Shown piece by piece: positions 2,832-21,976 of a DNA stretch of 31,026 nt. The stretch lies in the IMG/VR virus record IMGVR_UViG_3300017917_001712, positions 1-31,026 of that record, one strand, 5' to 3'. A model generated the notes under the pieces. It saw nothing but the letters and a program-made list of their open reading frames with translations. It was not told where the DNA came from and made no database searches. The position numbers were made by a program, and so were the translations under genes. This stretch comes from a virus. Each line of letters opens with the position of its first letter. Within the stretch, counting starts at the first letter, position 1.

Positions 2832-5777
2832 ATGGCAACAGCAATTCAGAGACGTCGTGGTAATACCGCCCAACACGCCAGTTTCACTGGCCTAGCTGGC
2901 GAAATTACCATCGATACAGATAAAAATACGGTAGTAGTTCACGATGGTACAACAGCAGGCGGTTATCCACTAGCCAAAGCCTCTGATGTAGCGGCACTGG
3001 GCGGTGCTGACATTACAGCAGTTATTGCAGGTAGTGGTTTAACCGGTGGTGCATCAAGCGGTAACGCAACAATTAGTCTAAACTATGAAAACTTAGCAGG
3101 TAACTTAGTACCAAGTGCTAACAATACATATAGTTTAGGTACAGCATCTAAAGTTTGGAAAGACGTTTTCGTAGGTCCAGGCTCTCTTTATGTTAACGGA
3201 CAAAAGGTACTTGCTGATAACAGCGGTACTATTACAGTTAGTGCCGACGCTGGTCAAAACCTAGCACTTGTTACAAGTGCAGGCGGCGATTTAGAACTTA
3301 ACTCAGGCGCAACAGGTGATATCCAACTTAAGTCAAACGTGATCTTAAGTGCAGGTAAAACAATTACCGCTAGTGGCGGCCTAAAGCTATCCAGCAACCT
3401 AGACGTTAACAGTCAGTACATTAACAATGTAACAAATCCAGTTCAAGCACAGGATGCTGCAACTAAGAGTTATGTTGATGGTGCAACTTATCTAAGTGCA
3501 GGCGACGGTTTAAGCAAGTCAACTGGTACATTCAGTGTTGACAACACAGTTGTTCGTACAAGTGGTACACAAACAATTGCTGGCGCTAAGACATTTAGTG
3601 CTGATCTTGTTGTAAGTGGTAACTTAACAGTAAGCGGAACAACTACAACAGTTAACAGTGAAACAATTAGTTTAGCTGATAACATTATTGACCTAAACAG
3701 CAACTTTACAACCGGTAGTCCAACTGAAAACGCTGGTTTAAGAATTAAACGCGGTGACAGTGCCGACGTTCAAATACGTTGGAACGAAGCTGATGATAAG
3801 TGGCAGTTCACTAACGACGGTTCAGCGTATGCTGACATTTTAACTGGTTCACAAGTTAAAGCACTATTCAGTGCAACTGATGCCGGTGGCGATGGTAGCT
3901 TTAGCTACAGCGACGGTGTGTTTACATATACTGGTCCTAGCCAAGCAGAAGCAAATACACGTATTGATGCACGCCTAAGCGGCACCAACGGTGTTACTTA
4001 TAGTGCAGGCGTAATTAGCCTAGCAAACACAACAGCTGGCTCAGGTTTAACTTATAGCTCAGGTGTGCTAAACATTGGTTCGGGTACAGGTATTACTGTA
4101 AATGCTGATGACGTATCACTAAGTGCAAGTGGTGTAACTGCCGGTACATACGGTAGTGCAACACAAGTTGGATCAGTTGTAGTTGATACATATGGTCGTG
4201 TAACTGGTGCAAGCAATATTACAGTTACACCAGCAGTAGGTAGTATTACTGGACTAGCAACCGGAATGGCATCATTCTTAGCAGCAGGTAATGCAGAAAC
4301 ATTTGCAGGTGCAGTAAGCGGCACAAACGGTAGTGGTAATATTGTACTAACAACTAGCCCAGTTCTTATTACACCAAACTTAGGTACACCATCATCTGTT
4401 AACTTAACTAATGCAACAGGTCTTAAGATTGAAGGTATCGCTGCGGCTAACATTTTAACCAGTGCAGAAACTTTCGTAGACACTGACAATCAGTTAATGA
4501 CAGCGGCAGCAATTGACGACAGAATCCTTAGCTACGGTTACACAACCAACGTTGGTGACATTACTGGTGTAACAGCAGGCAACGGTTTAACCGGCGGCGG
4601 CGCAAGTGGCGATGTAACACTTAACGTTGTAGGCGGTTATGGTATCACAGTTAACGCAGATAACATTGCTGTATCTAACGCTGACGTTCGCGGCTTGTTT
4701 AGTGGTTCAACTGGTGTTAGTTACGATGGCAACACTGGCGCATTTACACTAGACACCAGCACCGGCGGCGCAGGTTTAACTTATACTTCTGGTGTACTAG
4801 CAGTAGGCGCAGGCGCAGGTATTACAGTTAATGCAGACAACGTAGCACTAAGTGCAAGCGGTGTAACATCTGGTACTTACGGAAATGCTAGCGCAGTTAG
4901 CCAAGTTGTAGTTGATACATATGGTCGCGTTACTAATGCAAGCAACGTTTCAATCAGTATTACATCAGCACAAGTAAGCGACTTTGAAGCATCAGTACGT
5001 GGTGACATTAGCGTAACTGACGCAGGTGGTGATGGTTCACTTAGCTACAACAGCACAACAGGTGTAATTACATATACTGGTCCAAGTTCAGCTGATGTAC
5101 GTGCTCACTTTACAGCAGGCACAGGTATTAGTATCAGCTCGGGTGTAATTACCAACAGTGGTGTTACAAGCATTACAGGTACAAGTAACCAAGTAACAGC
5201 CAGTGCGTCAACTGGTAACATAACACTAAGTCTACCACAAAACATCCACACTGGTGCAAGTCCAACATTTGCTGGTGCTACATTAAGCAGCATCACAAAA
5301 GGTGGTACAGATGGCACAGGTGATATTGGCCAAAGTGCTAACAAATTTGGTACAGTTTACGCTACAACATTTAGCGGTGTATCAACAACAGCAAAATACG
5401 CTGACTTAGCAGAACGTTATGAAGCAGACGACGTTCTAGAACCAGGCACAGTTGTATGCTTTGGTGGTGCTAAGGAAATCACAGCTTGTGATCATCCAAA
5501 CGATCATGCAGTAGCAGGTGTTGTTTCAACTGATCCAGCTTACATGATGAACAGTGAAGCCGGTACAGATGCTACTCACCCATATGTTGCGCTAACAGGT
5601 CGTGTACCAGTTAAAGTAACAGGCGAAGTAAACAAGGGCGACCTACTAGTAGCAAGTGGTGTTAAAGGTCATGCAATGGCTAATAACAACGCTAAAGCTG
5701 GTACAATTATTGGTAAAGCAATTGGCTCAAGCGCCAGCGGCGAAGCAGTAATTGAAGTACTAATTACTTTAATGTAA
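2832..5777 (+). CDS. Long modular tail-fibre protein
   Basis: This 981-residue protein is the largest fibre gene here. The N-terminus (AIQRRRGNTAQHASFTGLAG, then a TIDTDKNTVVVHDGT run) matches the baseplate-attachment domain at the start of many phage fibres and the Mtd-type N-domain. The shaft has repeated Gly/Ser/Thr/Asn-rich beta units, including two aligned 64-residue units ending VVVDTYGRVT (DNA at 4035-4226 and 4764-4955) and two units beginning TDAGGDGS. An STGVSYD-type short repeat also recurs. The C-terminus (KYADLAERYEADDVLEPGTV, then TGRVPVKVTG) is paralogous to the end of the gene at 1-423. Shine-Dalgarno and late promoter lie upstream and a perfect terminator downstream, so it closes the fibre block. 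It probably determines host receptor binding. Confidence 0.8.
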   Translation: MATAIQRRRGNTAQHASFTGLAGEITIDTDKNTVVVHDGTTAGGYPLAKASDVAALGGADITAVIAGSGLTGGASSGNATISLNYENLAGNLVPSANNTYSLGTASKVWKDVFVGPGSLYVNGQKVLADNSGTITVSADAGQNLALVTSAGGDLELNSGATGDIQLKSNVILSAGKTITASGGLKLSSNLDVNSQYINNVTNPVQAQDAATKSYVDGATYLSAGDGLSKSTGTFSVDNTVVRTSGTQTIAGAKTFSADLVVSGNLTVSGTTTTVNSETISLADNIIDLNSNFTTGSPTENAGLRIKRGDSADVQIRWNEADDKWQFTNDGSAYADILTGSQVKALFSATDAGGDGSFSYSDGVFTYTGPSQAEANTRIDARLSGTNGVTYSAGVISLANTTAGSGLTYSSGVLNIGSGTGITVNADDVSLSASGVTAGTYGSATQVGSVVVDTYGRVTGASNITVTPAVGSITGLATGMASFLAAGNAETFAGAVSGTNGSGNIVLTTSPVLITPNLGTPSSVNLTNATGLKIEGIAAANILTSAETFVDTDNQLMTAAAIDDRILSYGYTTNVGDITGVTAGNGLTGGGASGDVTLNVVGGYGITVNADNIAVSNADVRGLFSGSTGVSYDGNTGAFTLDTSTGGAGLTYTSGVLAVGAGAGITVNADNVALSASGVTSGTYGNASAVSQVVVDTYGRVTNASNVSISITSAQVSDFEASVRGDISVTDAGGDGSLSYNSTTGVITYTGPSSADVRAHFTAGTGISISSGVITNSGVTSITGTSNQVTASASTGNITLSLPQNIHTGASPTFAGATLSSITKGGTDGTGDIGQSANKFGTVYATTFSGVSTTAKYADLAERYEADDVLEPGTVVCFGGAKEITACDHPNDHAVAGVVSTDPAYMMNSEAGTDATHPYVALTGRVPVKVTGEVNKGDLLVASGVKGHAMANNNAKAGTIIGKAIGSSASGEAVIEVLITLM
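4035..4226 (+). repeat. Fibre-shaft repeat unit, copy 1
   Basis: This 192-bp coding repeat (64 codons) aligns without gaps to 4764-4955. Both contain GLTY-SGVL, GITVNAD, LSASGVT-GTYG and VVVDTYGRVT. The DNA is diverged at many third positions, so the duplication is old. Confidence 0.8.
4764..4955 (+). repeat. Fibre-shaft repeat unit, copy 2
   Basis: This is the second 192-bp copy, in the same frame as 4035-4226 and in the same fibre gene. It is followed, like a larger duplicated block, by a TDAGGDGS-YTGPS segment that also occurs before copy 1 (about 3876-3945). Confidence 0.8.
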
Positions 5778-5946: not shown

Positions 5947-6243
5947 GTGGAAGAAGTTTTTAAACTTATCGCAGAAGTTGGCGCTCCTATCGCAGGATCG
6001 CTAGCAATGGGTTTTTTCATTTTCCTAGTAATCAAGCAGCTACTCGAAGGCGTAGTAGAACAAGTCAAAACTCTGACTATGTTTTGTAAGTCTTTAGAGA
6101 ATCGCGCTACTACTATGAGTAATGAAATGATGAAAATTGATCTGCTAGTAAGCAGTGCATTAGAACTGAAACCAGACATCGAACGCATCTCCAGAGCTAA
6201 CAACTTTGTAGAAGATGGTAAAGTAGACGCAAGGAGAGACTAA
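5947..6243 (+). CDS. Small membrane-anchored coiled-coil protein (holin-like?), paralogue of 6407-6763
   Basis: The 98-residue protein starts at GTG 5947, supported by the AGAGGTGA ribosome binding site. Residues about 8-33 form one hydrophobic segment (APIAGSLAMGFFIFLVIKQL), followed by an amphipathic helix to the end with no catalytic motif. The start MEEVFKLIAEVGAPIAGSLA resembles short phage and Bacillus proteins with one N-terminal helix (YvrJ/BhlA-like), some annotated as holins. The gene two positions downstream has the same architecture. Being first in the curli operon it could be an inner-membrane component, but holin or spanin-like use is equally possible. The function is not recognised. 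Confidence 0.6.
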   Translation: MEEVFKLIAEVGAPIAGSLAMGFFIFLVIKQLLEGVVEQVKTLTMFCKSLENRATTMSNEMMKIDLLVSSALELKPDIERISRANNFVEDGKVDARRD

Positions 6244-6407
6244 TGCTTTATGTAGATTATGTATTTGAAACCGCAGGCAACAATATTTTATTTGACAAAG
6301 AACTCAGCCCTGACTCACTGAAGGTGAAAACAGGTGATAAGTTTGTTGTCGAAGTTACTGAAGATAAAAGAATTATCTTAGTTAAAGTAGTTGAAGAGAG
6401 CAAATAA
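6243..6407 (+). CDS. Small unknown protein (54 aa)
   Basis: The ATG at 6243-6245 overlaps the preceding TAA by one base and has a strong AAGGAGAG Shine-Dalgarno at 6232-6239. The protein begins MLYVDYVFETAGNN, continues through DKELSPDSLKVKTGDKF and ends VKVVEESK. It is acidic, soluble and predicted beta-rich, with no signal peptide or membrane segment. Its stop overlaps the next ATG (TAATG). Tight coupling on both sides supports a real gene. I do not recognise the family. Confidence 0.65.
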   Translation: MLYVDYVFETAGNNILFDKELSPDSLKVKTGDKFVVEVTEDKRIILVKVVEESK

Positions 6408-6763
6408 TGGACGGCATCGCTGATTTAATCAGTCAATTTGGATTCCCAATTGTAGCCATGGTTGGCCTTGGATATTTCATCTATTTTATATGGACATTCA
6501 TTGGCGAGCATATAGATCCTGCATTGCATGATATGCACATTGCACTGATACGAGTAATTGACAAAACTCGTATGCTAGACCAAGATATGATTAGACTACA
6601 ACAGAAAGTTAATGTTGTATTAGAGTATCGAGCAGTTCAAAAGATTATTGAGCAAGCTCAAAAAGAAAAAGAGCTAGAAGCTCTTAAAAAACAAGTAAAC
6701 ACATCACATGTAGAGAAAGTAAAAGCAAAGCACGAGGAGACACATGATGCTAAGAAAATTTAA
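6407..6763 (+). CDS. Small membrane-anchored coiled-coil protein (holin-like?), paralogue of 5947-6243
   Basis: The 118-residue protein has one N-terminal membrane segment (about residues 11-35: FGFPIVAMVGLGYFIYFIWT) and a long charged helix rich in K, E, Q and A from about residue 75. The layout and the N-terminal phrase (ISQFGFPIVAMVGLGYF versus IAEVGAPIAGSLAMGFF) mark it as a divergent copy of the operon's first gene. It overlaps the CsgF start by about 20 nt, which suggests translational coupling. It may anchor or gate the export machinery, or act as a holin-like lysis protein; neither is shown by the sequence. Confidence 0.6.
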   Translation: MDGIADLISQFGFPIVAMVGLGYFIYFIWTFIGEHIDPALHDMHIALIRVIDKTRMLDQDMIRLQQKVNVVLEYRAVQKIIEQAQKEKELEALKKQVNTSHVEKVKAKHEETHDAKKI

Positions 6764-7217
6764 CATGTTTGTTTTTTCAGCTTTACTTGTTTCTGCATCG
6801 TCAGCTGGTGCTTCTGAGATTGTGCATCAATTTAATAGCCCATCCTTTAGTGGTATAGGCTTCACACAGCACGTTCTAAGCATTTACAATCAAGAACAAG
6901 CAGCTAAACAAAAAATCAAAGACGAAAAAGCACAAGCAGAAGCTAAGGCTGAATTAAAACTAATGCAAGATCCAATCTATCGTTTCAAGCAAGCTCTTGA
7001 AAGTAGAATGTATCAAGAACTTGCAAAACAAATTACAGATAACCTTTTTGGTGAAGCTGGTATTAGCGAAGGCGTACTAAACTTCCCAACAGGTGGTACA
7101 GTTGCTTATAAGAAAGATGGCACATTTATTACATTAACTATTACCGATATTAACGGCACAGTAACAGTAATCAAAGTTCCAGTAGCAACAATGATCAATG
7201 CAGCAGGTGGTGGCTAA
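6744..7217 (+). CDS. csgF: CsgF-like curli assembly/transport component
   Basis: The protein has 157 residues, with a signal peptide (hydrophobic FVFSALLVSASSAGA, cleavage expected after Ala23). The mature N-terminus SEIVHQFNSPSFSG matches the F-x-N-P-x-F-G signature with which CsgF binds and extends the CsgG pore. It is followed by the family's DPIYRFKQALESRMYQELAK helix and a C-terminal beta hairpin (TFITLTITDINGTVTVIKVP). A charged insert (KQKIKDEKAQAEAKAELKLM) makes it slightly longer than E. coli CsgF (138 aa). GAGGAG lies 4 nt before the first ATG and 7 nt before a second in-frame ATG at 6747, so either may be used. The csgG homologue follows immediately. Family assignment is strong. 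Confidence 0.88.
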   Translation: MMLRKFNMFVFSALLVSASSAGASEIVHQFNSPSFSGIGFTQHVLSIYNQEQAAKQKIKDEKAQAEAKAELKLMQDPIYRFKQALESRMYQELAKQITDNLFGEAGISEGVLNFPTGGTVAYKKDGTFITLTITDINGTVTVIKVPVATMINAAGGG

Positions 7218-7218
7218 T

Positions 7219-8208
7219 ATGAAAAAACTAACAGTAGCATTATTAGCTAGCGCAAGTCTTGCACTAAGCGGCTGTGCAAGTTATTCACAGATGGATAAGT
7301 TGTTAACTAAAACTCAATTCCAAGATGCAAAGATTGAAGGCACAACACTGGATCGCCCAGAATTTGTATTACCAAAGCCAGCTAACGGCCCAATGGTAGT
7401 TGCTGTATACAGCTTCTTAGATAGAACAGGTCAACGTAAGCCGAGCCCAATGGTTGCACAGTTAAGCAGTGCAGTTACACAAGGATCAGAAACTTATTTG
7501 ATTAAAGCACTTCAAGAAGTAGGTAACGGCGGATGGTTCAAAGTTGTTGAGCGTGTTGGACTAGACAACTTAATGAAAGAGCGTCAGATGATTCGTCAGA
7601 TGCGCGAAATTTACGAAGGTGCAAACGCAAAACCAATGCCCCCAATGTTGTTTGCAGGTGTATTGGTTGAAGGTGGTATCGTGGGTTATGACAGCAATGT
7701 TGTAACAGGCGGTAGCGGTATGCGTATTTTAGGTATTGGTCCGCAAACCCAATATCAAGCAGACATGATTACTGTAAGTCTGCGTGTAGTTAGTGTTACT
7801 ACCGGTGAGGTATTAGTAAGCATTACTACAACAAAAACAGTATATAGCTACATGGATAAGTTAGGTGTACTACGATTTGTAGAAGCTGGTACTAAATCTA
7901 TTGAAGCTGAAATTGGTATGGGTGTAAACGAAAGCGGAAATCGTGCAACTAACATGGCTATTCAAGCCGCAGTAGTTGAAATGATTCGCGAAGGACAGAG
8001 AAAAGGCTTTTGGGACTACGATCCAAAATCTGTAGAAGAAATTAGACTAGCTGAAGAAGCCAAAAAGAAAGCTAAAGAAGAAGCACAAATTCTTAATAAG
8101 CTAAAAAACACACTTAAAGGCAAAGAGAAGAACGACACTGTAGAATCAAAAACAAATATGATTGTTGATGGTTCCGGTGTAACAGTTAAAACAGGAGAGA
8201 GTCAATGA
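7219..8208 (+). CDS. csgG: CsgG-like outer-membrane curli secretion pore (lipoprotein)
   Basis: I start at ATG 7219 (329 aa), because MKKLTVALLASASLALSGC is a perfect lipoprotein signal with lipobox LSGC at Cys19. The upstream in-frame ATG at 7198 would overlap csgF and spoil the signal. The core matches CsgG: VAVYSFLDRTGQRKPSP, AVTQGSE, FKVVERVGLDNLMKERQMIR, VEGGIVGYDSNVVTGGSG, GIGPQTQYQADMITVSLRVV, STKT-type strand TTTKTVYSYM and KGFWDYDP. CsgG forms a nine-subunit outer-membrane channel that exports unfolded curlins with CsgF. By alignment the tyrosine and phenylalanine of the E. coli constriction appear as Ser and Leu. After about residue 270 there is an extra about 60-residue Lys/Glu-rich tail ending in VTVKTGESQ. 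Preceding csgF and following curlin genes are coupled. Confidence 0.93.
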   Translation: MKKLTVALLASASLALSGCASYSQMDKLLTKTQFQDAKIEGTTLDRPEFVLPKPANGPMVVAVYSFLDRTGQRKPSPMVAQLSSAVTQGSETYLIKALQEVGNGGWFKVVERVGLDNLMKERQMIRQMREIYEGANAKPMPPMLFAGVLVEGGIVGYDSNVVTGGSGMRILGIGPQTQYQADMITVSLRVVSVTTGEVLVSITTTKTVYSYMDKLGVLRFVEAGTKSIEAEIGMGVNESGNRATNMAIQAAVVEMIREGQRKGFWDYDPKSVEEIRLAEEAKKKAKEEAQILNKLKNTLKGKEKNDTVESKTNMIVDGSGVTVKTGESQ

Positions 8209-8897
8209 ATAAGACATACAAAGGCTTGTTGTTTGGTCTTGTAATGGCTTTAGGCTCTACCAGTGCTTTTGCTCAGGTAGCAAATACTACTAACAAAGTT
8301 TTCATCGACCAAGTTGGTAATAGTAATACAGTTACCCTAACACAATCAGGTAGTGGCAATAACATCGGCGTAAGCTCAAGTGATTATGCTACTATTACTG
8401 GCGACAGCAACACAGTAACAATGAGCCAGACTGGTGACGGTAATAAAGCAAATTATAAAATAACAGGTAATGGTAACACATATACAAGTGTTGTAACAGG
8501 TAATAACAATGATGTACTAGTAACTTGCGGTACAAACGCAGGTGCATGTACAGGTGTTATTATTGATCAGACAATTACAGGCAGTGGCAACAAACTAGTT
8601 GAAACAATCGCAGGTAGTGCTATCAATAGTAAGACAAAAATTGTTGGTAACTTAAACGACCTACAATACAATTTATTAAGCAGCAATGGTAAACTCGATG
8701 TTGACATTAGTGGTGATAGTAACATTCTACGCCACAATCAAAATGGCGCAGCAGGTGTTAACGGTCACGACCTTAAAGTAGCAATTGTTGGTTCATTGAA
8801 CCAAATCACAACTACACAGGGCGGTACAATTGACACAACTGTAAACATCAAAGTTAACGGCGGCAGTAACGTCATCAACGTAACTACGAGCAACTAA
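8205..8897 (+). CDS. Curlin-repeat amyloid subunit (CsgA/CsgB-like)
   Basis: The protein has 230 residues, with a Sec signal peptide (GLLFGLVMALGSTSAFA, cleavage after Ala23). The mature chain carries curlin repeats of the N-x-V-x-x-x-Q-x-G-x-x-N type: VFIDQVGNSNTVTLTQSGSG and GDSNTVTMSQTGDGN, then weaker GNGNT, GNNND, GSGNK, GDSNI and GSLNQ units at about 20-23-residue spacing. Each unit would form one strand-loop-strand rung of the amyloid cross-beta solenoid. An unusual CGTNAGAC stretch near residues 105-115 could form a disulphide-closed loop. The gene overlaps csgG by 4 nt (ATGA). Curlin identity is strong; whether it acts as major subunit (CsgA) or nucleator (CsgB) cannot be decided. 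Confidence 0.85.
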   Translation: MNKTYKGLLFGLVMALGSTSAFAQVANTTNKVFIDQVGNSNTVTLTQSGSGNNIGVSSSDYATITGDSNTVTMSQTGDGNKANYKITGNGNTYTSVVTGNNNDVLVTCGTNAGACTGVIIDQTITGSGNKLVETIAGSAINSKTKIVGNLNDLQYNLLSSNGKLDVDISGDSNILRHNQNGAAGVNGHDLKVAIVGSLNQITTTQGGTIDTTVNIKVNGGSNVINVTTSN

Positions 8898-9973
8898 TGC
8901 TACGCAAGATTGCTATTGCAATATGCTGTTTTCTAAGTGCAGTGCCAGCTTGGGCTGAGATTGGTAAAATCTCAACTCAGGTTGGCCCTGACTCTTCCAT
9001 TCAGCGTGGGAAACAAGTTATTGCAGGTAAACCTAACACAGGGATAGCATCCAATGATACAGTTAGTACTCGTAAAGGTACTACATTAAACATCAATTTC
9101 AAAGATAACACCAAAGTAAAAATTACAGAAAACAGTCGTCTAGTAATTGACGACTTTGTTTACGATCCTAAACAAAGTGATGCAGGTAGGCTAGCAATGA
9201 AAGTATCTATGGGCACGGTACGTTATGCTAGCGGACAAATTGCCAAAGTAAATCCTCAAAGAATTAACATCAAAACCCCTAGTGCTGCAATCGCAGTGCG
9301 AGGCACAGATTTCCACATGACGGTAGATGAGATGGGCAGAAGTTTAGTTATTCTGGTACCTAGCTGCCGCGACGAAAATGAAATTATTAAAACAGATGAA
9401 CAGCGTTTGTTAAATTGTCAAACAGGTAAGATTATAGTAGAGAATGCAGCAGGTGCAGTCACACTGGAAGAACCATTTAGTGCAACATATGTAGCAAACT
9501 TTGATTCATTACCAAATCCTCCAGTTACACTAAAGCTAACCAGTATTGATCCGAGAATTAGTTTTGATAGTCAGGTAACAAATGATTTGATTATTAGCCC
9601 ACCAGAAGCTGTCCAAGAACAGTTAGCTAAAGCATCAAAAGACGGCGAAAAAGAAGAAAAAGAAGAAGAAACTGTAACAAGAACAGCAAATGCTGATAAC
9701 AATAGAAATGCCGGTAAAGATGATGCAAGAATTACTGCATTAGCCGCCGGCAGCAACGCTAAAGGTCCTTGCTCAGAAAAGATTATTTGCGTTGAAACAA
9801 ATCCGTATGTGACTTTTTATAGAACCACAGACAGCGATCATTACGCAGAGGTACGAGCAAGACTTGGTGCAAACACAAATCTTACCATCATTCATAATGG
9901 CGATGAAGGCAAAGTGGGTTGGGGACCAGCGCCTAACTCGGGTAACATTATAACTATTAGGCAGTCAAAATGA
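8897..9973 (+). CDS. Secreted FecR-domain protein
   Basis: The 358-residue protein has a signal peptide (AIAICCFLSAVPAWA, cleavage after residue 20). Residues about 25-160 match the FecR domain: an early VSTRKGTTLNINFKDNTKVK segment, then SRLVIDDF, then SMGTVRYASGQ and the diagnostic IKTPSAAIAVRGTDF. A Glu/Lys-rich linker (EKEEKEEE, about residue 250) precedes a C-terminal beta-rich domain with two cysteines (CSEKIIC) and a final GWGPAPNSG segment. It lacks the transmembrane helix of classical FecR, so it should be periplasmic or exported. FecR-domain proteins often sit beside CHASE2 cyclases in bacterial genomes, as here two genes downstream, and may act as envelope sensors. It overlaps both neighbours by a few bases, which indicates coupling. 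Confidence 0.8.
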   Translation: MLRKIAIAICCFLSAVPAWAEIGKISTQVGPDSSIQRGKQVIAGKPNTGIASNDTVSTRKGTTLNINFKDNTKVKITENSRLVIDDFVYDPKQSDAGRLAMKVSMGTVRYASGQIAKVNPQRINIKTPSAAIAVRGTDFHMTVDEMGRSLVILVPSCRDENEIIKTDEQRLLNCQTGKIIVENAAGAVTLEEPFSATYVANFDSLPNPPVTLKLTSIDPRISFDSQVTNDLIISPPEAVQEQLAKASKDGEKEEKEEETVTRTANADNNRNAGKDDARITALAAGSNAKGPCSEKIICVETNPYVTFYRTTDSDHYAEVRARLGANTNLTIIHNGDEGKVGWGPAPNSGNIITIRQSK

Positions 9974-11367
9974 GAAAGATACTAGCAGCATTATTATTTT
10001 TCATCAGCATGCCAGCACTAGCACAGCAAGCTAACTTTGGTTTTGAGAGCGGTAACTACTCTAACTGGACTGTTAGTAATGGTAGTACAACTGTTAAGAC
10101 CGGCGGCTGGAGCGATAGTGGCTCGGGCGCACAAGTTACTACAGGTGTAAACAATTATTGTCCTGGTGGTGGTAAATGTTGGACTATTACACCGTATGGT
10201 ACTTATATGTTAAGCATACAAGCAGGTAGTGGCTCTCCTTCGTTTGACAGCTCAATGACAACTCTTGGCTTTACTAGTGCTGAAACTACTTCAATTAAAA
10301 ATACCATTTACCAAAATGGCAACATGTACCCAACTAACGCTTCTTACGCAAGACGTAGTGTAGTACTAGAAGCAGGTAAAACTTATACCTATGCATGGAA
10401 CTATCTTAGCACAGACTATACTCCATACAATGACGGTTCAATGGTTGTGGTAACAGGCCCAGCTGGACCAGTAACAGTTAACGGTCAACAAAAATATGCA
10501 CTGCTAGGTTTTACTAATCCTGGAACTGGTAACTATTCGACTGGCAGCTATGGCTCAACTGGTTGGCAGCAGATAGTTATTACTGTAACTGTTACAGGAA
10601 CTTATGACTTATCGTTTATATCTTTTAACTTAGGTGACACAGCACTAAGCCCAATTCTTTTTATTGATGAAATCATAGGTACTACTCAACTTAACGGTCA
10701 GGATTTTACATCGGTTGCGCCAAACGCAGGTAGTACTGCTCCTCCACCCCCAGCCCCCGGCCCAACAGGCCCAACATATTGCTGTGGTGGCACTGATACA
10801 TCATTTAATGCTAGCACAACAAATACAGCTAAAGTTAATATCTTTAGTTCTAGAACTGTCAAGGATTCCAAAGTAATCATTGAACAAATTGGTTCTGGTA
10901 ATAGTATTACTGTAACACAAAGTGGTACTAGGGAAAATTACTTTAAGTATTACAGTAACGGTAATAATAACACTACTACTGCTACACAAAGTGGCACAAG
11001 TAATGCAGTGACAAACTATATGGACATTACAGTCAATGGTAGCAGTAATAGCTTAACACTAAGCCAAACAGGCACTGGTGGAGCAAAAGGAATCTTTGCT
11101 ACAGTAGCAAATAATAACAATACGATAAATATCCAGCAAAAAGATAATGGTAGCCATTACCTAGATTTATCTTTGAGCGGTGGCAACAAGTCTGTTGCTA
11201 TCATCCAACAAGGCAGCGGAAATCATATGGCCGCAGTCAGCCTTAGCGGGAACCCAACAAGTTTCGAATTGACACAAAGTGGCAGTACACAAAACTTCTA
11301 TTCAATTGCACATTCGTGTGCAACAACTGGAGGATGCGGTACAATCACAGTAACACAAGGACAATAA
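9970..11367 (+). CDS. Fusion of an exported beta-rich adhesin-like domain to curlin repeats
   Basis: The protein has 465 residues, with a signal peptide (ILAALLFFISMPALA, cleavage after Ala18). Residues about 20-250 form an exported beta-sandwich-like domain: NFGFESGNYSNWTVSNG at the start, VLEAGKTYTYAWNYLSTDY in the middle, FIDEI near the end. This order is typical of carbohydrate-binding or extracellular jelly-roll modules. A proline-rich hinge (APPPPAPGPTGP, about 257-269) and a CC pair follow. From about 300 come at least five curlin units at about 23-26-residue spacing (VIIEQIGSGNSITVTQSGT, NNNTTTATQSG, SSNSLTLSQTG, NTINIQQKD, KSVAIIQQGSGN). The curlin half should dock into or nucleate the amyloid while the N-terminal domain is displayed. 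A CATTGGC loop near the end resembles the Cys loop of the other curlin. Domain identity of the N-terminus is inference. Confidence 0.78.
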   Translation: MRKILAALLFFISMPALAQQANFGFESGNYSNWTVSNGSTTVKTGGWSDSGSGAQVTTGVNNYCPGGGKCWTITPYGTYMLSIQAGSGSPSFDSSMTTLGFTSAETTSIKNTIYQNGNMYPTNASYARRSVVLEAGKTYTYAWNYLSTDYTPYNDGSMVVVTGPAGPVTVNGQQKYALLGFTNPGTGNYSTGSYGSTGWQQIVITVTVTGTYDLSFISFNLGDTALSPILFIDEIIGTTQLNGQDFTSVAPNAGSTAPPPPAPGPTGPTYCCGGTDTSFNASTTNTAKVNIFSSRTVKDSKVIIEQIGSGNSITVTQSGTRENYFKYYSNGNNNTTTATQSGTSNAVTNYMDITVNGSSNSLTLSQTGTGGAKGIFATVANNNNTINIQQKDNGSHYLDLSLSGGNKSVAIIQQGSGNHMAAVSLSGNPTSFELTQSGSTQNFYSIAHSCATTGGCGTITVTQGQ

Positions 11368-11368
11368 C

Positions 11369-13402
11369 ATGCTTAAGAAAATTTTACTAAGTCCATGGAC
11401 TGCATTACTCACACTAATTTTAATCGTAGGTATCAGAGCACTAGATCCTAGCTTCGTTGAAAGTGTACGCTTAAGATATTTTGATACACTTATTACCAGC
11501 AAGCCGCCTGTGCAAAATAATGTTTACACTGTGAACATTGATGAAGCAGCACTAGACAAATATGGACAATGGCCTTTTCCACGTGATCAGTATGCAAGCA
11601 TAGTAAAAGATTTATATAGCAGAGGCGCAGGCCTTGTTGTATTCAATGTGTTAATGGCAGAGCCAGATCGCTTCAAAGGCGACAAGGCTATGGAAACTGC
11701 GATGGCACAGTATCCAGTTATACTACCAAATGTGCCATCAGACAAGTCAAAAAATAATCCTCGCGAAACTGGCGCCGCAATCCTAGGCCCAGAGTACTTA
11801 GATACAGTAATTCAATATCCTGGTATCATTGCTAACTTGCCTAACTATGAAGGACTAGCAATCGGTACAGGTACAGTTAATACATTACCAGAGATTGACG
11901 GTGTTAATCGTCGCGTACCATTAGTAGCCAGTGTAGACGGAACATTATATCCAGCACTAAGTTTAGAAGTACTGCGAGTAGTAGCAGGCGATCCTAGCTT
12001 TCAAATTAAGCTAAACGAACTTGGTGTTGAAAAGATGCGTATACCTCAGTTTGGTCCAGTTACTACAGACAGCTTAGGTCGTGTGTGGATTGACTGGAGC
12101 CAAAAGTCACACAGCATCAGTTTAGCAGACTTGCCTAAAGACTTTAGAGGTGCTGTTGTTATTGTAAGCCCAACCGCAGCAGGCATCAGTAACCCAGTGC
12201 CAACAGCACTAGGGCCAATTCATCCACATGAACTACAAGCCGCAGTAGTTGGTACTATGTTTAACGGTGTAAACATTCAACGCCCAGACTATGCAGACTT
12301 TGCAGAAATTGCTGCATTACTTGCATTGGGCTTAATTATAATTTTCTTATCAAGGTGGACATATGTCGGTCTTTCTACAACTGTTGTTGGGATCGCTGCC
12401 AGTGTTGGTGGCTCTTACTGGTTGTTTATTAACCACAACGTGCTCGCAGACGCGACAGCAACTACTATTGGCCTTATTCTTGTTGCCCTGCACGTTTATG
12501 GCGTTAAGTTTGTAAGTGAGTTCTTGCAGAAGCAACAAATTAAAAAGCAGTTTGGCACTTACTTAAGTCCAGACCTAGTAGCACAGCTACAGCGTCAACC
12601 AGAACTGCTAAAACTAGGTGGTACAGAACAAGAGCTGTCAATTATGTTTACTGATGTTCGTGGCTTTACTACAATCTCTGAACACTATGGCAAAGACGTT
12701 CAAGGCTTAACAAGTATTATGAACCGTTATATGACTGCTATGACTAAAGCTATCCTTGAGAACAAGGGTACGCTAGACAAGTATATTGGTGACGCACAGA
12801 TGGCATTCTGGAACGCACCTGTTAATAATCCACAACACGCAAAAGATGCAGTACGTACTGCATTCCAAATGTTAAAAGCACTAAAGGAATTCAATGAAGA
12901 AATTAAGGCAGAAGGTGTACCAGCTTTTGGTATGGGTCTCGGTATCAATACTGACACTGTGGTTGTTGGCAATATGGGCAGCGATCAGCGTTTTGACTAT
13001 ACCTGTCTTGGCGACGGCGTTAATCTTGCTAGTCGCCTCGAAGGTCAATCCAAGCCCTACGGAGTCAAAATCATTATCGGACCAAAAACGGCTGAGTATG
13101 TGCGAGAAGCATACCAAGTCGTTGAGCTCGATTTACTCGCAGTAAAAGGCAAAACAGAACCGGCACAAATTTTCACAGTTTTAGAAGAATTTGATGCTGC
13201 CGATGAAAGAGTACACAAACAATTTTTAACAGCTTATCGCAAAGGTGATTGGGATATCGCATACAGAATAGCTACAGACATGAGACACAGTTGGAAGGGT
13301 GAACTAACTCAATATTACGAAGCAATGCGAGCTCGTATACATGAGTTTAAAGCAAGTCCTCCCAAAAACTGGGATGGCATTTACAGAGCCACATCAAAAT
13401 GA
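11369..13402 (+). CDS. CHASE2-domain membrane adenylate cyclase (class III, Lys/Thr type)
   Basis: The protein has 677 residues: an N-terminal membrane helix (about 12-25), an extracytoplasmic CHASE2 sensor domain (about 30-300, with YTVNIDEAALDKYGQWPFPR), three membrane helices (about 310-385), then a cytoplasmic class III cyclase domain (about 420-610). Catalytic residues are present: metal aspartates Asp429 (MFTDVRGFT) and Asp475 (YIGDAQMAFW), purine-selecting Lys471 and Thr545 (DYTCLGDGVN), and transition-state residues Asn552 and Arg556. The Lys/Thr pair points to ATP and the class IIIb subgroup, some of which respond to bicarbonate. The enzyme should make cAMP in response to an envelope signal. 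AAGGA precedes the ATG. It is the last large gene of the curli operon, paired with the FecR protein. A complete, apparently active CHASE2 cyclase in a phage is unusual. Confidence 0.9.
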   Translation: MLKKILLSPWTALLTLILIVGIRALDPSFVESVRLRYFDTLITSKPPVQNNVYTVNIDEAALDKYGQWPFPRDQYASIVKDLYSRGAGLVVFNVLMAEPDRFKGDKAMETAMAQYPVILPNVPSDKSKNNPRETGAAILGPEYLDTVIQYPGIIANLPNYEGLAIGTGTVNTLPEIDGVNRRVPLVASVDGTLYPALSLEVLRVVAGDPSFQIKLNELGVEKMRIPQFGPVTTDSLGRVWIDWSQKSHSISLADLPKDFRGAVVIVSPTAAGISNPVPTALGPIHPHELQAAVVGTMFNGVNIQRPDYADFAEIAALLALGLIIIFLSRWTYVGLSTTVVGIAASVGGSYWLFINHNVLADATATTIGLILVALHVYGVKFVSEFLQKQQIKKQFGTYLSPDLVAQLQRQPELLKLGGTEQELSIMFTDVRGFTTISEHYGKDVQGLTSIMNRYMTAMTKAILENKGTLDKYIGDAQMAFWNAPVNNPQHAKDAVRTAFQMLKALKEFNEEIKAEGVPAFGMGLGINTDTVVVGNMGSDQRFDYTCLGDGVNLASRLEGQSKPYGVKIIIGPKTAEYVREAYQVVELDLLAVKGKTEPAQIFTVLEEFDAADERVHKQFLTAYRKGDWDIAYRIATDMRHSWKGELTQYYEAMRARIHEFKASPPKNWDGIYRATSK

Positions 13403-17039: not shown

Positions 17040-18116
17040 CTATTTATCTAAAATCTTGCCACAGTGATGTACGCAAGTTGAACAGTGTTTTCTATTATCT
17101 CCTAGCTGCAATTTGCCATCAAACGCATCAGTTAGTGTTTTAATGTAAAAGCTATGCTGTAGTACCTTGTGTATTGACTTATTCTGTGTTACTTTGAGCT
17201 CATCTTTAATAGGATCAATTATCCTACTGAGCTGTGGTTCTCGCATCATATACTTTGACGCAATATAACAGCATGGATACACAGCACCGTCAGAATCAAT
17301 ATAAACTTCGTACTTGTCTTTATTGGGCCCGTAACCGGAGACCTGACAGTTGAACTCTACTTCCATACTAGACCAGTCAATGCCATCAAATTGTTTAAAC
17401 TCGTGGTTTTCAACTTTAACAAAGCTATCGTGCTGATCGTGCAACTCTGTTTCGTAGTGCGGCTTTAAAGTATATTCTAAGTTACCATCTCTGTTATAAA
17501 CTGGTACAGTTCTTGTTTTGCCATCCTGTAATTCAAAAAATCCATATGGTTCTTTGATATCAAAGTATACATTATACTTTTTGCAAATAGCATCAATCAC
17601 AGGAATATCATCTTTGTTGTGTGCAAATTTTAAGAATTCCCATCGTGCAGGACCACCACCTTCAAAGTAGGCTAACATGTTAGCCCAAACTTTACTCCAC
17701 TTAACATTTTTTCTATAGATATGATTAGTGTGTTCTAAACCGTCTACACTCCACACTACAAAACTGTTAGTACCTTTAAACAGTTGGCTAATTTTGGCCC
17801 AGTAATCCGGCTGCTTTGCGCCTCCGTTTGTTCGCACTTCGATCTGTGTATTTGGGTTACATTTAAGCAGAAACTCTAATATAACCAACAAGTCTTTGGC
17901 TGCACTAGGATCGCCCTTTGTGCCGCAAAAATTCCAGCGTCTAATCCCTTTACAAAAATCTTCACCTAGCATCAAAAAGTAATCTAAGCCAAGTTCTTGA
18001 TTTTTGATATAGGGCATAACTGGCCCACCATTTAATGATCTAGGACAAACTGGACATTCAGCGTTGCAGCGATCGGTTAGCTCAACGTGTACTTCGTTTA
18101 TAGGATTTGAATACAT
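17040..18116 (-). CDS. Radical SAM / SPASM-type protein
   Basis: The protein has 358 residues. The radical-SAM cluster motif C-x3-C-x2-C is at Cys17, Cys21 and Cys24 (DRCNAECPVC), followed by the usual FCGTKGDP strand and EVRTNGG. The C-terminus has a SPASM-like set of cysteines (CQVSG, YPCCYIA, CSTCVHHCG) that could hold an extra Fe-S cluster. Such enzymes modify peptides or small molecules by radical chemistry. It is divergent from the gene at 18184 and precedes gp14 on the minus strand. The start follows a GATAAGTA box at the 5-nt leaderless spacing and no Shine-Dalgarno is visible. Substrate unknown. Confidence 0.85.
   Translation of the reverse strand: MYSNPINEVHVELTDRCNAECPVCPRSLNGGPVMPYIKNQELGLDYFLMLGEDFCKGIRRWNFCGTKGDPSAAKDLLVILEFLLKCNPNTQIEVRTNGGAKQPDYWAKISQLFKGTNSFVVWSVDGLEHTNHIYRKNVKWSKVWANMLAYFEGGGPARWEFLKFAHNKDDIPVIDAICKKYNVYFDIKEPYGFFELQDGKTRTVPVYNRDGNLEYTLKPHYETELHDQHDSFVKVENHEFKQFDGIDWSSMEVEFNCQVSGYGPNKDKYEVYIDSDGAVYPCCYIASKYMMREPQLSRIIDPIKDELKVTQNKSIHKVLQHSFYIKTLTDAFDGKLQLGDNRKHCSTCVHHCGKILDK
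17041..17048 (-). promoter_or_regulatory. T4-type late promoter box (GATAAATA), leaderless arrangement for gp14
   Basis: The minus strand reads GATAAATA-GTGTT-ATG. The box overlaps the last codons and stop of the upstream radical SAM gene. The predicted start falls on the ATG itself. Confidence 0.7.
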
Positions 18117-18121
18117 ACCAA

Positions 18122-18129
18122 TACTTATC
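18122..18129 (-). promoter_or_regulatory. Late-type promoter box (GATAAGTA), leaderless arrangement
   Basis: The minus strand reads GATAAGTA-TTGGT-ATG (18116). It has one more mismatch than the other boxes but identical spacing to the start codon. Confidence 0.5.
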
Positions 18130-18158
18130 TAAAACAAAAGTAGGCTGCAAAAATTCTA

Positions 18159-18166
18159 GATAAATA
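18159..18166 (+). promoter_or_regulatory. T4-type late promoter box (GATAAATA) for the metabolic island
   Basis: GATAAATA lies in the 67-nt divergent gap. The expected start near 18172 is followed by GAGGA (about 18174) and the ATG at 18184, a short leader with a Shine-Dalgarno. With 18122-18129 it forms a back-to-back promoter pair. Confidence 0.7.
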
Positions 18167-18183
18167 TCGCAGCGAGGAACACT

Positions 18184-19557
18184 ATGACACAGACAATTAA
18201 CATCTTCTATTTGCACGAAGGTGCACAATTTGATGCAGAAACTGTTAAAGATTTTCGTAACAGATCGTGGTTTCACAGAGAGTTGTGGCCACTGGAACGC
18301 ACAGCAGGAATTTATAATCCGCGATGGTACGACAACAATAAGTTTTCATTCAATATTGTTAACAACGGTAATGTGGCTGCATTAGATAAGTCAGCACCAA
18401 CAATTATCCCTTGTGATTTTCAAAGCTCAGGGCTTGCATGGAATGATTCTACAGGTAAAACTACAGTAACAGAATTTGGTTCTAGGTATCAAGAAGTAAT
18501 TGAGCGCATGGCGCAAGATCCAGATATTCCAAATAAAATCTTCTTGGTCTATTCCTGTGCTGAACCACACTATCATAATGACTCGGCGTTTATTAAATCG
18601 TTAGCACTAAAGTATCCAGACTCAAAATTTGTAACAAGCGCATCTGGTACAGTAGACCCTGTGTTTGCGTGGGAAAAGCGCATAACAGTTGGGTTACCAA
18701 ATTTTAAGTGGATCTCTAGACAATGGTATTTTGAACAAGTTCATGAAAGAACTTTCGTAGATTATAAAATGCGTCGAGCTCATGCTGACTTAGAAGCAAC
18801 TGAGCCGCCCAAACATTTAAAAGACTTTGCTAATAGAAAACCACGTTTTGTAATGACTATGAAAAATCTTAGATTGCATAGGTCCATTGCAAGCTACCTA
18901 GTTGAAAACGACAGGTCGATACTTGATACTTGTACATATACACGTAACTTCACCATTGAACCTAGAATGTTTAGAGAACTTGAACGCAATAATCAGCCTT
19001 CGGAGTATATGACGGCGGCCCGGTTTGCATTAAAAGGCGTTAGAGAAGTCCTAGCAGAAAAAGATATCAGTGATGCTGACAAAGTAGGTATTATAAATCA
19101 GATGTTTTCTTCGCCGCATAAGATTGATTTACAAAATTGTCAAGACGATACTTCTCCCCCAGCCTGGTTGTACAATGGTGCAGGTATTGCACTAGTTGCA
19201 TCTGGTGAAGAAAACGGATGGGGATTCATTGACGAAAAGCCTGTGATTGCTATGCTATTTAAAAAGCCATTCCTCTATTTTGGTGGCCGGGGTCTATATG
19301 AAGAACTTGAAAAAATGAAGTTTAAAACTTTCCGTGACTACTTTGATTTAGGTTTTGCAGTTGGCGAAACTTGTTTCCAGCGTGTCAAAGGGTTCTACGA
19401 TGTTGTTAAAAAAGAAGCCGAGAAGGGCGAGTTTGAGTTCTGGAACGGTCTAGAGTCGCTGCAAGAAGATGTTGAATACAACTACAACTGGTTTAAGTCT
19501 GGTGACTTCAAGTACGAAAACAATAATAAATTCTTTGAGGAAATACTAAGTGTCTAA
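18184..19557 (+). CDS. Putative glycosyltransferase-like protein
   Basis: The protein has 457 residues and is soluble. The most informative part is near residues 345-395: GWGFIDEKPVIAMLFKKPFL, YFGGRGLYEELEKMKFKTFR, then DYFDLGF. This resembles the E-K-x-x-x-A-x-x-x-x-K-P-F...L-x-x-x-x-F-x-T-F signature found near the C-terminus of several phage glycosyltransferase-like and exostosin-like proteins. The N-terminal half (FYLHEGAQF, FLVYSCAEPHYHND) is Rossmann-like but without a readable donor-binding motif. It opens the island, is preceded by a late promoter and Shine-Dalgarno, and its end overlaps the next gene by 8 nt. The specific reaction is unknown and the family assignment is tentative. 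Confidence 0.5.
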   Translation: MTQTINIFYLHEGAQFDAETVKDFRNRSWFHRELWPLERTAGIYNPRWYDNNKFSFNIVNNGNVAALDKSAPTIIPCDFQSSGLAWNDSTGKTTVTEFGSRYQEVIERMAQDPDIPNKIFLVYSCAEPHYHNDSAFIKSLALKYPDSKFVTSASGTVDPVFAWEKRITVGLPNFKWISRQWYFEQVHERTFVDYKMRRAHADLEATEPPKHLKDFANRKPRFVMTMKNLRLHRSIASYLVENDRSILDTCTYTRNFTIEPRMFRELERNNQPSEYMTAARFALKGVREVLAEKDISDADKVGIINQMFSSPHKIDLQNCQDDTSPPAWLYNGAGIALVASGEENGWGFIDEKPVIAMLFKKPFLYFGGRGLYEELEKMKFKTFRDYFDLGFAVGETCFQRVKGFYDVVKKEAEKGEFEFWNGLESLQEDVEYNYNWFKSGDFKYENNNKFFEEILSV

Positions 19558-20434
19558 GGCAGTACGTGGCGCAAGGCCTATTGTTGATGCAACTGTCAAA
19601 GATCACTATGACAACTTTGTATTCAAGCCTGTTAGTCTAGGGTCGTATACTAATGTTTGGAGAAACTGGTTAACTTTTACTACTAACAAAAGTATACACG
19701 GTCTCGACAATTTTAAATTTGCTGATTACACACAAGGAACAAGTCAAACGTTTGATCAGTTTGTATTACGGCACAGCCAACAACGTGAAATTGTAACACT
19801 TAAAGGTGAGTTCCAGTATCACGGATGCATAAGCAAAGCAGTTCGATATCGCAATGTCGATCACGACAACTATTACTTTTTTGCAGAGCGTGGATTACAG
19901 GCACTATTAATAAGTGCTCCATTCAGTGACTTTGGTTGTATCCATCCAAAGTTTGACGAGATTATGCAGGTATGTGATCAACTGGATATTCCTGTTTGTT
20001 TGGATTTAGCATATTGGGGCATAAGCAAAAATGTACACCTTGATCTGGACAAATATCCTGCGATTAAAGAAGTAACATGCAGTTTAAGCAAACCATTCTA
20101 CACACTTGAAAATCATCGAGTGGGCGTTAGATTCACTCGAGAATATGTAGATGACGGTATTAGTATGCTCAACGAAGTGTCTATGCAAAATAACTACAGC
20201 ATGAGTTTGGGTGTGCATTACATGCGAGAATTCAGCCCAGACTGGAATTGGGAAACTTATCAAAGTCGCTACGAAGAAGTATGCAAAGAATTTGGATTCA
20301 TTTACACTGACACTGTAATATTTGGGTTAGGTGACGAAGCACGTCACGGACACTATAACAGAGGCGTGCCTGGAAATTATAGGGTATGCATATCCGAATA
20401 CTTAAATAACAGATCAACCACGGAGCAATTATGA
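19550..20434 (+). CDS. PLP-dependent aminotransferase-fold protein (short)
   Basis: The protein has 294 residues from GTG 19550, supported by GAGGAAA just upstream; the start overlaps the preceding stop. The aspartate-aminotransferase fold is suggested by VCLDLAYWG (Asp152, Tyr155, expected PLP ring contacts) followed by TCSLSKPF, where Lys181 fits the Schiff-base lysine. GVRFTREY after it matches the usual G-x-R segment. It is shorter than common fold-type I enzymes (about 400 aa), lacking most of the N-terminal and some C-terminal parts, so it may need a partner or a different substrate. It overlaps the amidinotransferase by 4 nt, and the two may act on one amino-compound. Confidence 0.6.
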   Translation: MSKAVRGARPIVDATVKDHYDNFVFKPVSLGSYTNVWRNWLTFTTNKSIHGLDNFKFADYTQGTSQTFDQFVLRHSQQREIVTLKGEFQYHGCISKAVRYRNVDHDNYYFFAERGLQALLISAPFSDFGCIHPKFDEIMQVCDQLDIPVCLDLAYWGISKNVHLDLDKYPAIKEVTCSLSKPFYTLENHRVGVRFTREYVDDGISMLNEVSMQNNYSMSLGVHYMREFSPDWNWETYQSRYEEVCKEFGFIYTDTVIFGLGDEARHGHYNRGVPGNYRVCISEYLNNRSTTEQL

Positions 20435-21489
20435 TCGTAAATTCACACAACGACTGGGATCCTTTAGAGGAAATTATTGTAGGCCATGCACATCACAGCC
20501 GCATTGCCACAGATATCAGCGCACACAGCTTTAGCTATGCAAACCATCCAGCTGAAAAGATTAAGCATTTAGAAGGCACTTACCCACAATGGGTTATCGA
20601 CGAAGCAAACGAAGATGCAGATGGGCTAGCAGATACACTTACTAAGATGGGTGTTAAAGTACATCGTCCTAAGATTATTGATTGGGACAAAGTTAACTAC
20701 GACATTGGTCAAGGCTGGAATACCAAAGGCTGGTATAGCTGGTGCCCACGCGATCTAATTCTCCCGCTAGCAGATATGCTTATTGAAACACCTACTCCTG
20801 TACGTGCTAGATATTTTGAAACAAGATTGTACGAAGATATTTTATACGAAGCATTTGAAGATGGCGCACTATGGCTACAAGCCCCTAAGCCAAAGCTACA
20901 TGACAACATGTATCAGTTTGAAGACCTAAGTAAGGCAACACTAATGGACCATGAGATTTGTTTTGATGCTCCTAACATTGTTCGGGTAGGCCGCGACTTG
21001 CTGTATCAAGTTAGCAATAGTGGTAACATGAAAGGCTTCAAGTGGCTCAAACGTTTCTTAGAACCAATGGGCTATAAGCTACATTACAGTGAGCTTTATA
21101 GCTTTGCACACTTTGACAGCACCATTGTTCCGCTACGTCCGGGTCTTGTACTGCTAAACAGCACACGAGTAACACCAGACAACTGTCCTGAAATCTTTAA
21201 GAAGTGGGACAAGATTTGGTTTGAAGATTGTGTTGTACAAGGCAGCAAACTTGCTGACCAGGGATATATTGCCCCATGCAGTCCATATATTGGTATGAAC
21301 ATTCTCAGCGTCAACGAAAACACAATTATTTGTGATAGCGCACAGGAACCTCTAATGCGCGAACTAGATAAGTGGGGCATTGACAGCGTGCCAGTTCGTT
21401 TCCGTCATAGCATGACACTGAGCGGTGGTATTCACTGTGCCACACTTGACTTGCGTCGCAGAGGCACACTGGAGAGCTATTGTGATTAA
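20431..21489 (+). CDS. Glycine/inosamine amidinotransferase-like enzyme
   Basis: The protein has 352 residues. It begins VNSHNDWDPLEEIIVGHAHH, the usual start of the arginine:glycine amidinotransferase family. The catalytic triad is visible: Asp179 (CFDAPNIVRVGRD), His227 (AHFDSTIV) and Cys336 in SGGIHCATLDLRRRGTLESY, which closely resembles the active-site end of animal AGAT. Spacings between the triad residues also match AGAT. The enzyme should move an amidino group from arginine to an amine (glycine, an amino-sugar or inosamine). Next to an aminotransferase-fold gene this suggests amine formation followed by amidination. Coupled by overlapping ATGA. Confidence 0.88.
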   Translation: MIVNSHNDWDPLEEIIVGHAHHSRIATDISAHSFSYANHPAEKIKHLEGTYPQWVIDEANEDADGLADTLTKMGVKVHRPKIIDWDKVNYDIGQGWNTKGWYSWCPRDLILPLADMLIETPTPVRARYFETRLYEDILYEAFEDGALWLQAPKPKLHDNMYQFEDLSKATLMDHEICFDAPNIVRVGRDLLYQVSNSGNMKGFKWLKRFLEPMGYKLHYSELYSFAHFDSTIVPLRPGLVLLNSTRVTPDNCPEIFKKWDKIWFEDCVVQGSKLADQGYIAPCSPYIGMNILSVNENTIICDSAQEPLMRELDKWGIDSVPVRFRHSMTLSGGIHCATLDLRRRGTLESYCD

Positions 21490-21976
21490 CTATGGGCGTA
21501 TTAGCATTGATATAACGTCGGAACAACTTACAGCGTTAAAGTTCAACGACTATTTTCAATGCTATCAACAAACGCCCGAAGTTGCCAAATACTACACACA
21601 ACACAACAGTAGTATTTGGCAAATGTTCAACGAAGATTGCCCGCAGTGGGTTTGGGATCTAGCTAATAAAATTCCACAAGACTTTGATCGTTTTGTTGTT
21701 AGTGTTATTAGACTAGACCCAGGACAGACTATCCCTTATCATGTTGACAAGCACTTTAAGCTACGCGAAGCGTATGGCGAAGGCGATACCAGTAGATATT
21801 TAATCTTCTTAGAGGATTGGATGCGTGGGCATTATTATGATATTCATGATCAGCCATATCTAAAATGGAGAGCTGGTGATTGGGTAAAGTTTGGACCACA
21901 CGATTGGCACACAGCAGGCAATATGGGCACTCAGCCTTTCTATTCAGCACAGGTAACTGTACTTAAGTATGTATAA
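21482..21976 (+). CDS. 2OG-Fe(II) oxygenase / Asp-beta-hydroxylase-like protein, copy 1
   Basis: I start at GTG 21482 (164 aa), 5 nt after GGAGAG and overlapping the amidinotransferase stop; the upstream ATG at 21425 would lie deep in that gene. A double-stranded beta-helix metal site is readable: His87-x-Asp89 (PYHVDKHFKL) and distal His143 (HDWHTAGNMG). At the place where the paralogue downstream has Arg163 (QPRYTMQIS), this copy has Phe153 (QPFYSAQVT), so the co-substrate anchor may be altered. Related proteins hydroxylate Asp/Asn residues or small molecules. Substrate unknown. Confidence 0.65.
   Translation: MINYGRISIDITSEQLTALKFNDYFQCYQQTPEVAKYYTQHNSSIWQMFNEDCPQWVWDLANKIPQDFDRFVVSVIRLDPGQTIPYHVDKHFKLREAYGEGDTSRYLIFLEDWMRGHYYDIHDQPYLKWRAGDWVKFGPHDWHTAGNMGTQPFYSAQVTVLKYV

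Follow-up and report, generated by a model that had tools for sequence, protein, structure and literature searches.

Why does the second curlin of a phage curli operon carry a large domain in front of its repeats? The window analysed, i.e., the whole 31,026-base IMG/VR virus record IMGVR_UViG_3300017917_001712, comes from a contractile-tailed phage (tail sheath gene phrog_10581, PHROGs) and contains a curli operon of the order CsgF-CsgG-curlin1-FecR-curlin2-CHASE2-cyclase (Pfam). The reason for curli operons in phages of curli-less plankton remains an open question (PMC7029224, PMC9599517, PMC9004378). The pelagiphage type VIII secretion (curli) module has the same order, CsgF-CsgG-curlin-FecR-(second curlin)-adenylate cyclase (PMC7029224, PMC9599517), and a 2022 report already included its second curli repeat gene. 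In the relevant sections of those two papers, however, the second gene is only a curli repeat fibre, without head, fusion or exchange, and neither PA14 nor lectin occurs in either of them.

The operon genes (6744–13402, all on the + strand) are arranged head to tail, overlapping or with small gaps. CsgF (6744–7217; PF10614, 9.7e-18) is followed by the outer-membrane curli pore CsgG, which has a charged C-terminal extension (7198–8208; PF03783, 2.3e-47), and by curlin1, a headless curlin-repeat protein of 230 aa (8205–8897; PF07012, 1.2e-5) that is likely the main fibre subunit. Downstream lie a FecR-domain protein with a signal-peptide-like N-terminus (8897–9973; PF04773, 5.9e-12), the headed curlin2 of 465 aa (9970–11367; ORF, Pfam, AlphaFold2), whose ATG start overlaps the fecR stop (ATGA at 9970), and a CHASE2-adenylate/guanylate cyclase (11369–13402; PF05226, 2.1e-37; PF00211, 8.8e-21). 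The Pfam search returned no CsgE family for the operon, and promoter-like sites occurred no more often than in shuffled sequence. A pair of small phrog_18771 proteins sits 5′ of CsgF on the same strand, one of 98 aa with a single N-terminal hydrophobic stretch (5947–6243; PHROGs, 4.6e-23) and one of 118 aa (6407–6763; PHROGs, 2.6e-23). Neither gave a Pfam family above cut-off, and no kinase domain was found there (Pfam, PHROGs); podoviruses have been reported to carry a histidine kinase at the position before CsgF (PMC9599517). A gene cluster at 17040–25345, situated between the operon and the sheath gene, holds radical-SAM-like, epimerase-like and amidinotransferase-like genes as judged by eye.

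Curlin2 consists of a putative signal peptide (residues 1–19, 9970–10026, + strand, as are the following parts), assigned by eye and modelled as a helix at residues 2–17; a head domain with a CBM/MAM-like β-sandwich (residues 21–238, 10030–10683; AlphaFold2, Foldseek, VIA-align); a disordered Pro-rich linker with a CCGG motif (residues 239–282, 10684–10815); and a curlin half (residues 283–465, 10816–11364) with a 14-strand solenoid at residues 300–464 (AlphaFold2, Curlin_rpt). In the AlphaFold2 model, built from a 34-sequence alignment, pLDDT is mostly 70–91 over residues 22–237, with a drop below 50 at residues 183–193, below 50 in the linker (residues about 238–282), and mostly 71–94 in the 14 confidently predicted strands of residues 300–465. 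Curlin_rpt (PF07012) matches three stretches (10876–10926, 10960–11073 and 11191–11283) at 6.7e-8 and 32.8 bits against a cut-off of 20.7. The match begins near residue 285–300, i.e., the protein is not just a short leader followed by repeats. Against the NCBIfam equivalogs, curlin2 is far below cut-off for both CsgB (23 bits vs 165) and CsgA (15.7 vs 160); its curlin half scores slightly nearer CsgB than CsgA (5.2e-5 vs 0.011, both below cut-off). The first-pass annotation had read this ORF as a β-rich N-terminal domain of about 230 residues fused to a proline hinge and five curlin units. The curlin identity and the fusion in one 465-aa ORF held (PF07012), as did the domain, which comprises about 215–220 residues and is folded in the model, so that the refuting outcome of no folded N-terminal domain was not met. 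The hinge held as the Pro-rich linker, and only the number of units failed: 14 strands make seven strand-turn-strand units.

A Foldseek search of the head against the PDB placed CBM61 first (PDB 2xom, E 1.2e-4, TM 0.65 by target), with CBM16, CBM27 and CBM4 modules and gingipain adhesin domains further down amid lower-probability glucanase rows. VIA-align gave Z values of 10.6 to a porphyran-binding CBM (PDB 8xmz), 9.3 to CBM61 and 9.0 to CBM16, and MAM-containing meprins reached up to 9.1, almost level with the CBMs. The best PDB matches are carbohydrate-binding modules, the group against which the first-pass annotation had suggested a fold search. By sequence, the head alone matched no Pfam family at E ≤ 1, gave only chance-like matches in the PDB, and was weakly similar to NF038132 (NCBIfam; 24.6 bits, far under the 90-bit cut-off). 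At the level of model prediction, the fold class, a CBM4/16/61-type β-sandwich, is clear. A sugar ligand is possible but a guess, as the β-sandwich class is broad and no binding data are available.

A fusion of this kind might arise from faulty assembly or mark a pseudogene in decay, and homologues with the two halves in separate genes had been named beforehand as the case that would refute it. Relatives of curlin2 were found in 18 IMG/VR loci, full length in 13 (86–95% identity) and truncated by contig ends in the other five; since 13 other loci encode the full-length protein, the fusion is not an assembly artefact. A search with the CBM-like head, termed A, yielded 348 IMG/VR loci, the best 80 of which were retained. 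Head A and the curlin half lie within a single ORF in all 78 listed viral loci (L117–L194; L numbers denote comparison loci), and the halves were not found as separate genes among these 78. The dN/dS values of seven pairs are 0.04–0.06 for the head and 0.005–0.12 for the curlin half. Both halves are under purifying selection, with no sign of diversifying selection in the head (dN/dS, seven relatives). The artefact or pseudogene reading was rejected on the basis of the full-length relatives, the number of head loci and dN/dS, and is all but excluded; the separate-gene case likewise failed. The two halves are not of the same age (dS 0.99 for the head but 0.50 for the curlin half vs L010; 0.37 and 1.60, respectively, vs L009), which points to recombination close to their junction, even between closely related loci.

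An initial search of phages at the protein level returned HTVC008M alone, matching only the curlin half, and it was thus that a different head came to light. In this cultured Pelagibacter phage, the curlin2 slot holds a 441-aa protein annotated as hypothetical, with curlin repeats and a PA14 head (Pfam, 27.7 bits vs a gathering score of 24). The comparison set came from cyclase-anchored scans (best 80 of 503 and best 80 of 565) and head-anchored scans (best 80 of 348 for head A, plus 34); a close-relative CsgG scan returned mostly the same contigs. Classes were counted in 205 distinct complete curlin ORFs, curlin1 included, from loci predating the 34-locus head scan. An N-terminal region of at least 150 residues is present in 82 of them and absent from 123. 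By module profile, the 82 headed ORFs comprise 52 CBM-like A, ten GIFT-like G, seven PA14, three X+A, two A+F5/8C, two C and one E, with one each of C+F5/8C, F+PA14, X+F5/8C, F+F5/8C and C+PA14. Module profiles were chosen because BLAST clustering of whole N-terminal regions merged classes via multi-domain proteins. The set is skewed to A owing to the A-head search, and X and C probably represent a single family, as X scores on L098, part of the C training set.

PA14 exceeds the Pfam cut-off in HTVC008M, L041, L062, L253 and L274, and F5/8 type C in L076, L098, L099, L181 and L193. The PA14 assignments of L095 and L107 rest on the custom profile only, without a Pfam report, and that of L281 is just below the Pfam cut-off (23.4 vs 24). 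The L062 head additionally shows a weak GLEYA match (23.8 bits vs a cut-off of 26.2). A marine G head, folded alone (AlphaFold2; pLDDT 82.2, pTM 0.84), has an α/β fold like that of the IFT52 N-terminal domain (Foldseek, PDB 5fms, E 8.7e-7, TM 0.68), followed by ThuA-like and GATase folds. Head G is joined to curlin in 25 of 33 ORFs, the other eight ending at a contig edge. In the annotated and mapped loci inspected in which curlin2 is headed, each operon contains one headed and one headless curlin. The flanking genes of ten comparison ORFs from nine loci were compared with PHROGs; six matched, including a phage exonuclease (L206), NrdA (L269) and an endolysin (L091), and four had no match. In many marine operons, the curlin2 slot is occupied by a mini curlin-like ORF of about 117–127 aa (e.g., L237:5616–5999, L208:5629–5982), too short for the curlin profile used.

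Phage curlin2 is modular: it bears one of several unrelated heads, or none, and the heads are exchanged, a feature that the first-pass annotation did not see. The curlin halves of HTVC008M (PA14) and L258 (G) are 88.3% identical over 213 residues, and their heads 27.0%. The corresponding values are 87.0% over 231 residues and 31.2% for L253 (PA14) and L220 (G), and 79.0% over 167 residues and 31.1% for L182 (A) and L098 (C/X+F5/8C), against a shuffled-head baseline with a mean of 25.8% and a maximum of 34.0%. The reverse case also occurs, in which heads of 68–70% identity sit atop curlin halves of 25–28%; window-type and L131-type A heads, for example, share 68.4% and their curlin halves 26.8%.

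Head type was also mapped on a cyclase tree of 84 rows, drawn from 109 of known state after same-state copies of ≥95% were dropped; it is a quick tree with SH-aLRT support only. The state without curlin2 was merged with the headless state because the marine branch includes the mini curlin-like ORFs there. With all headless states merged, head type changes 25 times (32.7 in shuffles), and among the 34 headed rows 15 times (19.9 in shuffles). Changes are fewer than in shuffles, so the heads are partly inherited too. Sister cyclases with differing heads are nonetheless present (L249/L253, HTVC008M/L207, L041/L057 and L099/L107), and 50 of the 84 rows have no headed curlin2.

In bacteria, curlin repeats were found in 45 of 398 Pseudomonadota genomes, 30 loci of which were sampled; the sample leaves out the remaining 15 genomes as well as the giant adhesins of Shewanella. 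The 30 loci contain 59 curlin ORFs with at least three repeats, 51 of them having their own start. None of these 51 is headed, and the first repeat is never beyond residue 99, so that the earlier claim that ordinary CsgA and CsgB lack such a domain held within this sample. A scan with head A of genome contigs from 84,980 species gave seven loci, and none of the six ORFs recovered (L201 yielded no row) contains curlin. By Pfam, one is an ESPR+PATR autotransporter passenger, one carries IPTL-CTERM and one PEP-CTERM; the remaining three are Gram-positive-type repeat proteins, with LPXTG below cut-off in two. Searching plasmids with FecR returned a single weak match, to Ruegeria. The search for the same fusion elsewhere was therefore positive in phages and negative in the bacterial curli loci examined: head and curlin go together in phages, though not in the bacteria covered here.

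On balance, though by no wide margin, we favour curlin2 as a phage-encoded display subunit, an exchangeable adhesin on amyloid. The fusion, its operon, the predicted folds, the head exchange and the purifying selection follow from the data, whereas export, assembly into amyloid, binding of glycans, adhesion of cells and the ligand are all inferred. In this model, the phage CsgG/CsgF pore would export curlin1 and curlin2 from the infected cell, and the curlin half of curlin2 would join an amyloid made mainly of headless curlin1. The N-terminal head, held away from the fibre on its flexible linker, would be a glycan- or surface-binding module. Heads are swapped between phages at the linker, so that the fibre would serve as a constant scaffold for interchangeable adhesins. 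The likely gain would be an infected cell that sticks to neighbouring cells or particles, with the specificity set by the head. Published ideas on phage curli include 'sibling capture', superinfection exclusion and uptake (PMC7029224, PMC9599517), as well as lysis timing (PMC9004378).

The display model is supported by the tightly packed or overlapping operon, by the predicted folded CBM-like head, disordered linker and solenoid, and by the constancy of the fusion (78/78 loci for head A; 25/33 for head G, the rest contig-cut). PA14 and F5/8 type C are known surface or adhesion domains, the bacterial head A homologues occur on autotransporter, IPTL-CTERM and PEP-CTERM proteins, and a binding role is suggested both by the exchange of heads and by their types. 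At one locus (L054:2856–4898), an autotransporter β-domain protein replaces curlin2 in the FecR-cyclase slot (PF03797, 46.4 bits), suggesting a slot meant for a surface-displayed protein. Several points count against it. Data on export, amyloid and binding are lacking, and the fold match denotes a broad β-sandwich class rather than sugar binding. CsgG passes unfolded chains, so the 220-residue, Cys-containing head would have to stay unfolded in the periplasm, and CsgE is not among the operon's families. Heads are optional, being missing from 50 of the 84 tree rows, and are under strong purifying selection, unlike an arms-race receptor binder. Melnitz-infected cells showed no clumping (PMC9004378); this is no test of the heads, however, because the Melnitz curlin2 is headless. 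The fibre displaying a binding module, as proposed at first pass, is supported, without binding data.

The alternative offered with it, a nucleator linking the fibre to a surface, is undecided against display. Curlin2 could possibly be a CsgB-like nucleator or tip, its head tethering the fibre base to the cell's own envelope or capping an end. The single headed curlin per operon and the slightly closer score to CsgB, though far below cut-off, fit this reading, and host LPS or capsule are conceivable targets of the heads. Against it, stacking would not be hindered by the head, given the length and disorder of the linker, and head type shifts between close phages, whereas a tether to the host's own envelope might be expected to stay stable within a host range. 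A role of the head in superinfection exclusion, in which it would shield or modify the surface of the infected cell and block competing phages, with adhesion incidental, is unlikely. Exchangeable binding modules would fit the masking of different receptors, and curli have been suggested to guard against superinfection (PMC9599517), but direct evidence is lacking and the low head dN/dS shows no receptor tracking. Less credible still is a curlin2 that is not displayed at all, its head stalling in the periplasm and, with FecR and the CHASE2 cyclase, sensing curli export or a ligand. CHASE2 is a sensory domain, fecR, curlin2 and cyclase adjoin one another, and a curlin-like strand ends most FecR proteins (see below); yet this reading leaves unexplained the exchange among surface-binding modules and the bacterial homologues on surface-anchored proteins.

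With display as the preferred reading, curlin2 resembles CsgA and CsgB in its curlin repeats, β-solenoid and CsgG/CsgF partners and differs in its large N-terminal non-curlin domain. The very large Shewanella adhesins, four non-curli matches to the repeat model (PMC3521004), similarly contain curlin-like repeats inside an adhesin. Engineered CsgA-VHH curli (PMC9477280) display a binding domain via CsgG, as proposed here, but are man-made with a single curlin, whereas curlin2 is a natural viral protein, a second curlin that bears its head at the N-terminus. Yeast flocculins are cell-surface adhesins with PA14/GLEYA lectin domains; the PA14 domain is shared with phage curlin2, and no homology between stalk and curlin is claimed. 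NF038132/PEP-CTERM-type surface proteins are related only through the weak head match and the PEP-CTERM or IPTL-CTERM of the bacterial homologues. In BFVD, such proteins from uncultured phages are already named 'Curlin associated' or 'PA14 domain-containing protein', but no analysis of them, nor any description of headed curlins, was found in the open-access literature searched. Phage curli operons, second curlin included, were known already; the head and its exchange are apparently unreported in that literature.

A bolder reading, for which the case is as strong as the case against, is that aquatic phages evolved natural amyloid display, with a conserved scaffold and an N-terminal cassette position on the second curlin. 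By analogy, CBM-like, PA14, F5/8C, GIFT-like and tandem modules would be swapped like the receptor-binding tips of tail fibres. If true, infected cells of curli-less hosts would become specifically sticky, a viral, Gram-negative analogue of flocculins; engineered curli display would have a natural precedent; and domain exchange would affect a viral protein acting at the infected cell surface, not on the virion. An exchanged binding head makes the question of why phages carry curli testable, as heads predict specific ligands, and HTVC008M (PA14 head) and Melnitz (headless) offer a ready contrast in culture.

Some further observations concern curli genes elsewhere. At L043:2979–4973, an autotransporter β-domain protein likewise occupies the slot, as judged by eye without a Pfam match. 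The Melnitz record annotates two curlin-repeat proteins (L032:2516–3235, 4285–5310), contrary to the statement that csgA and csgB are absent from this phage (PMC9004378). OR851715.1, a 1,499-base record labelled Salmonella phage, has a CsgG match of 42.6% and is possibly a bacterial fragment.

Finally, the FecR protein of the window ends in a curlin-like strand (NSGNIITIRQSK; 9935–9970, + strand) with an hxhxQ motif. This motif occurs within the last 25 aa of 91 of 97 distinct viral FecR C-termini, compared with 13.6% of internal 25-mers and 24% of shuffled C-termini. It is possible that the FecR protein templates, caps or senses curlin and does not regulate iron. Among the C-termini of neighbouring proteins, the motif was found in 3 of 98 cyclases, 5 of 92 CsgG and 11 of 64 CsgF sequences.
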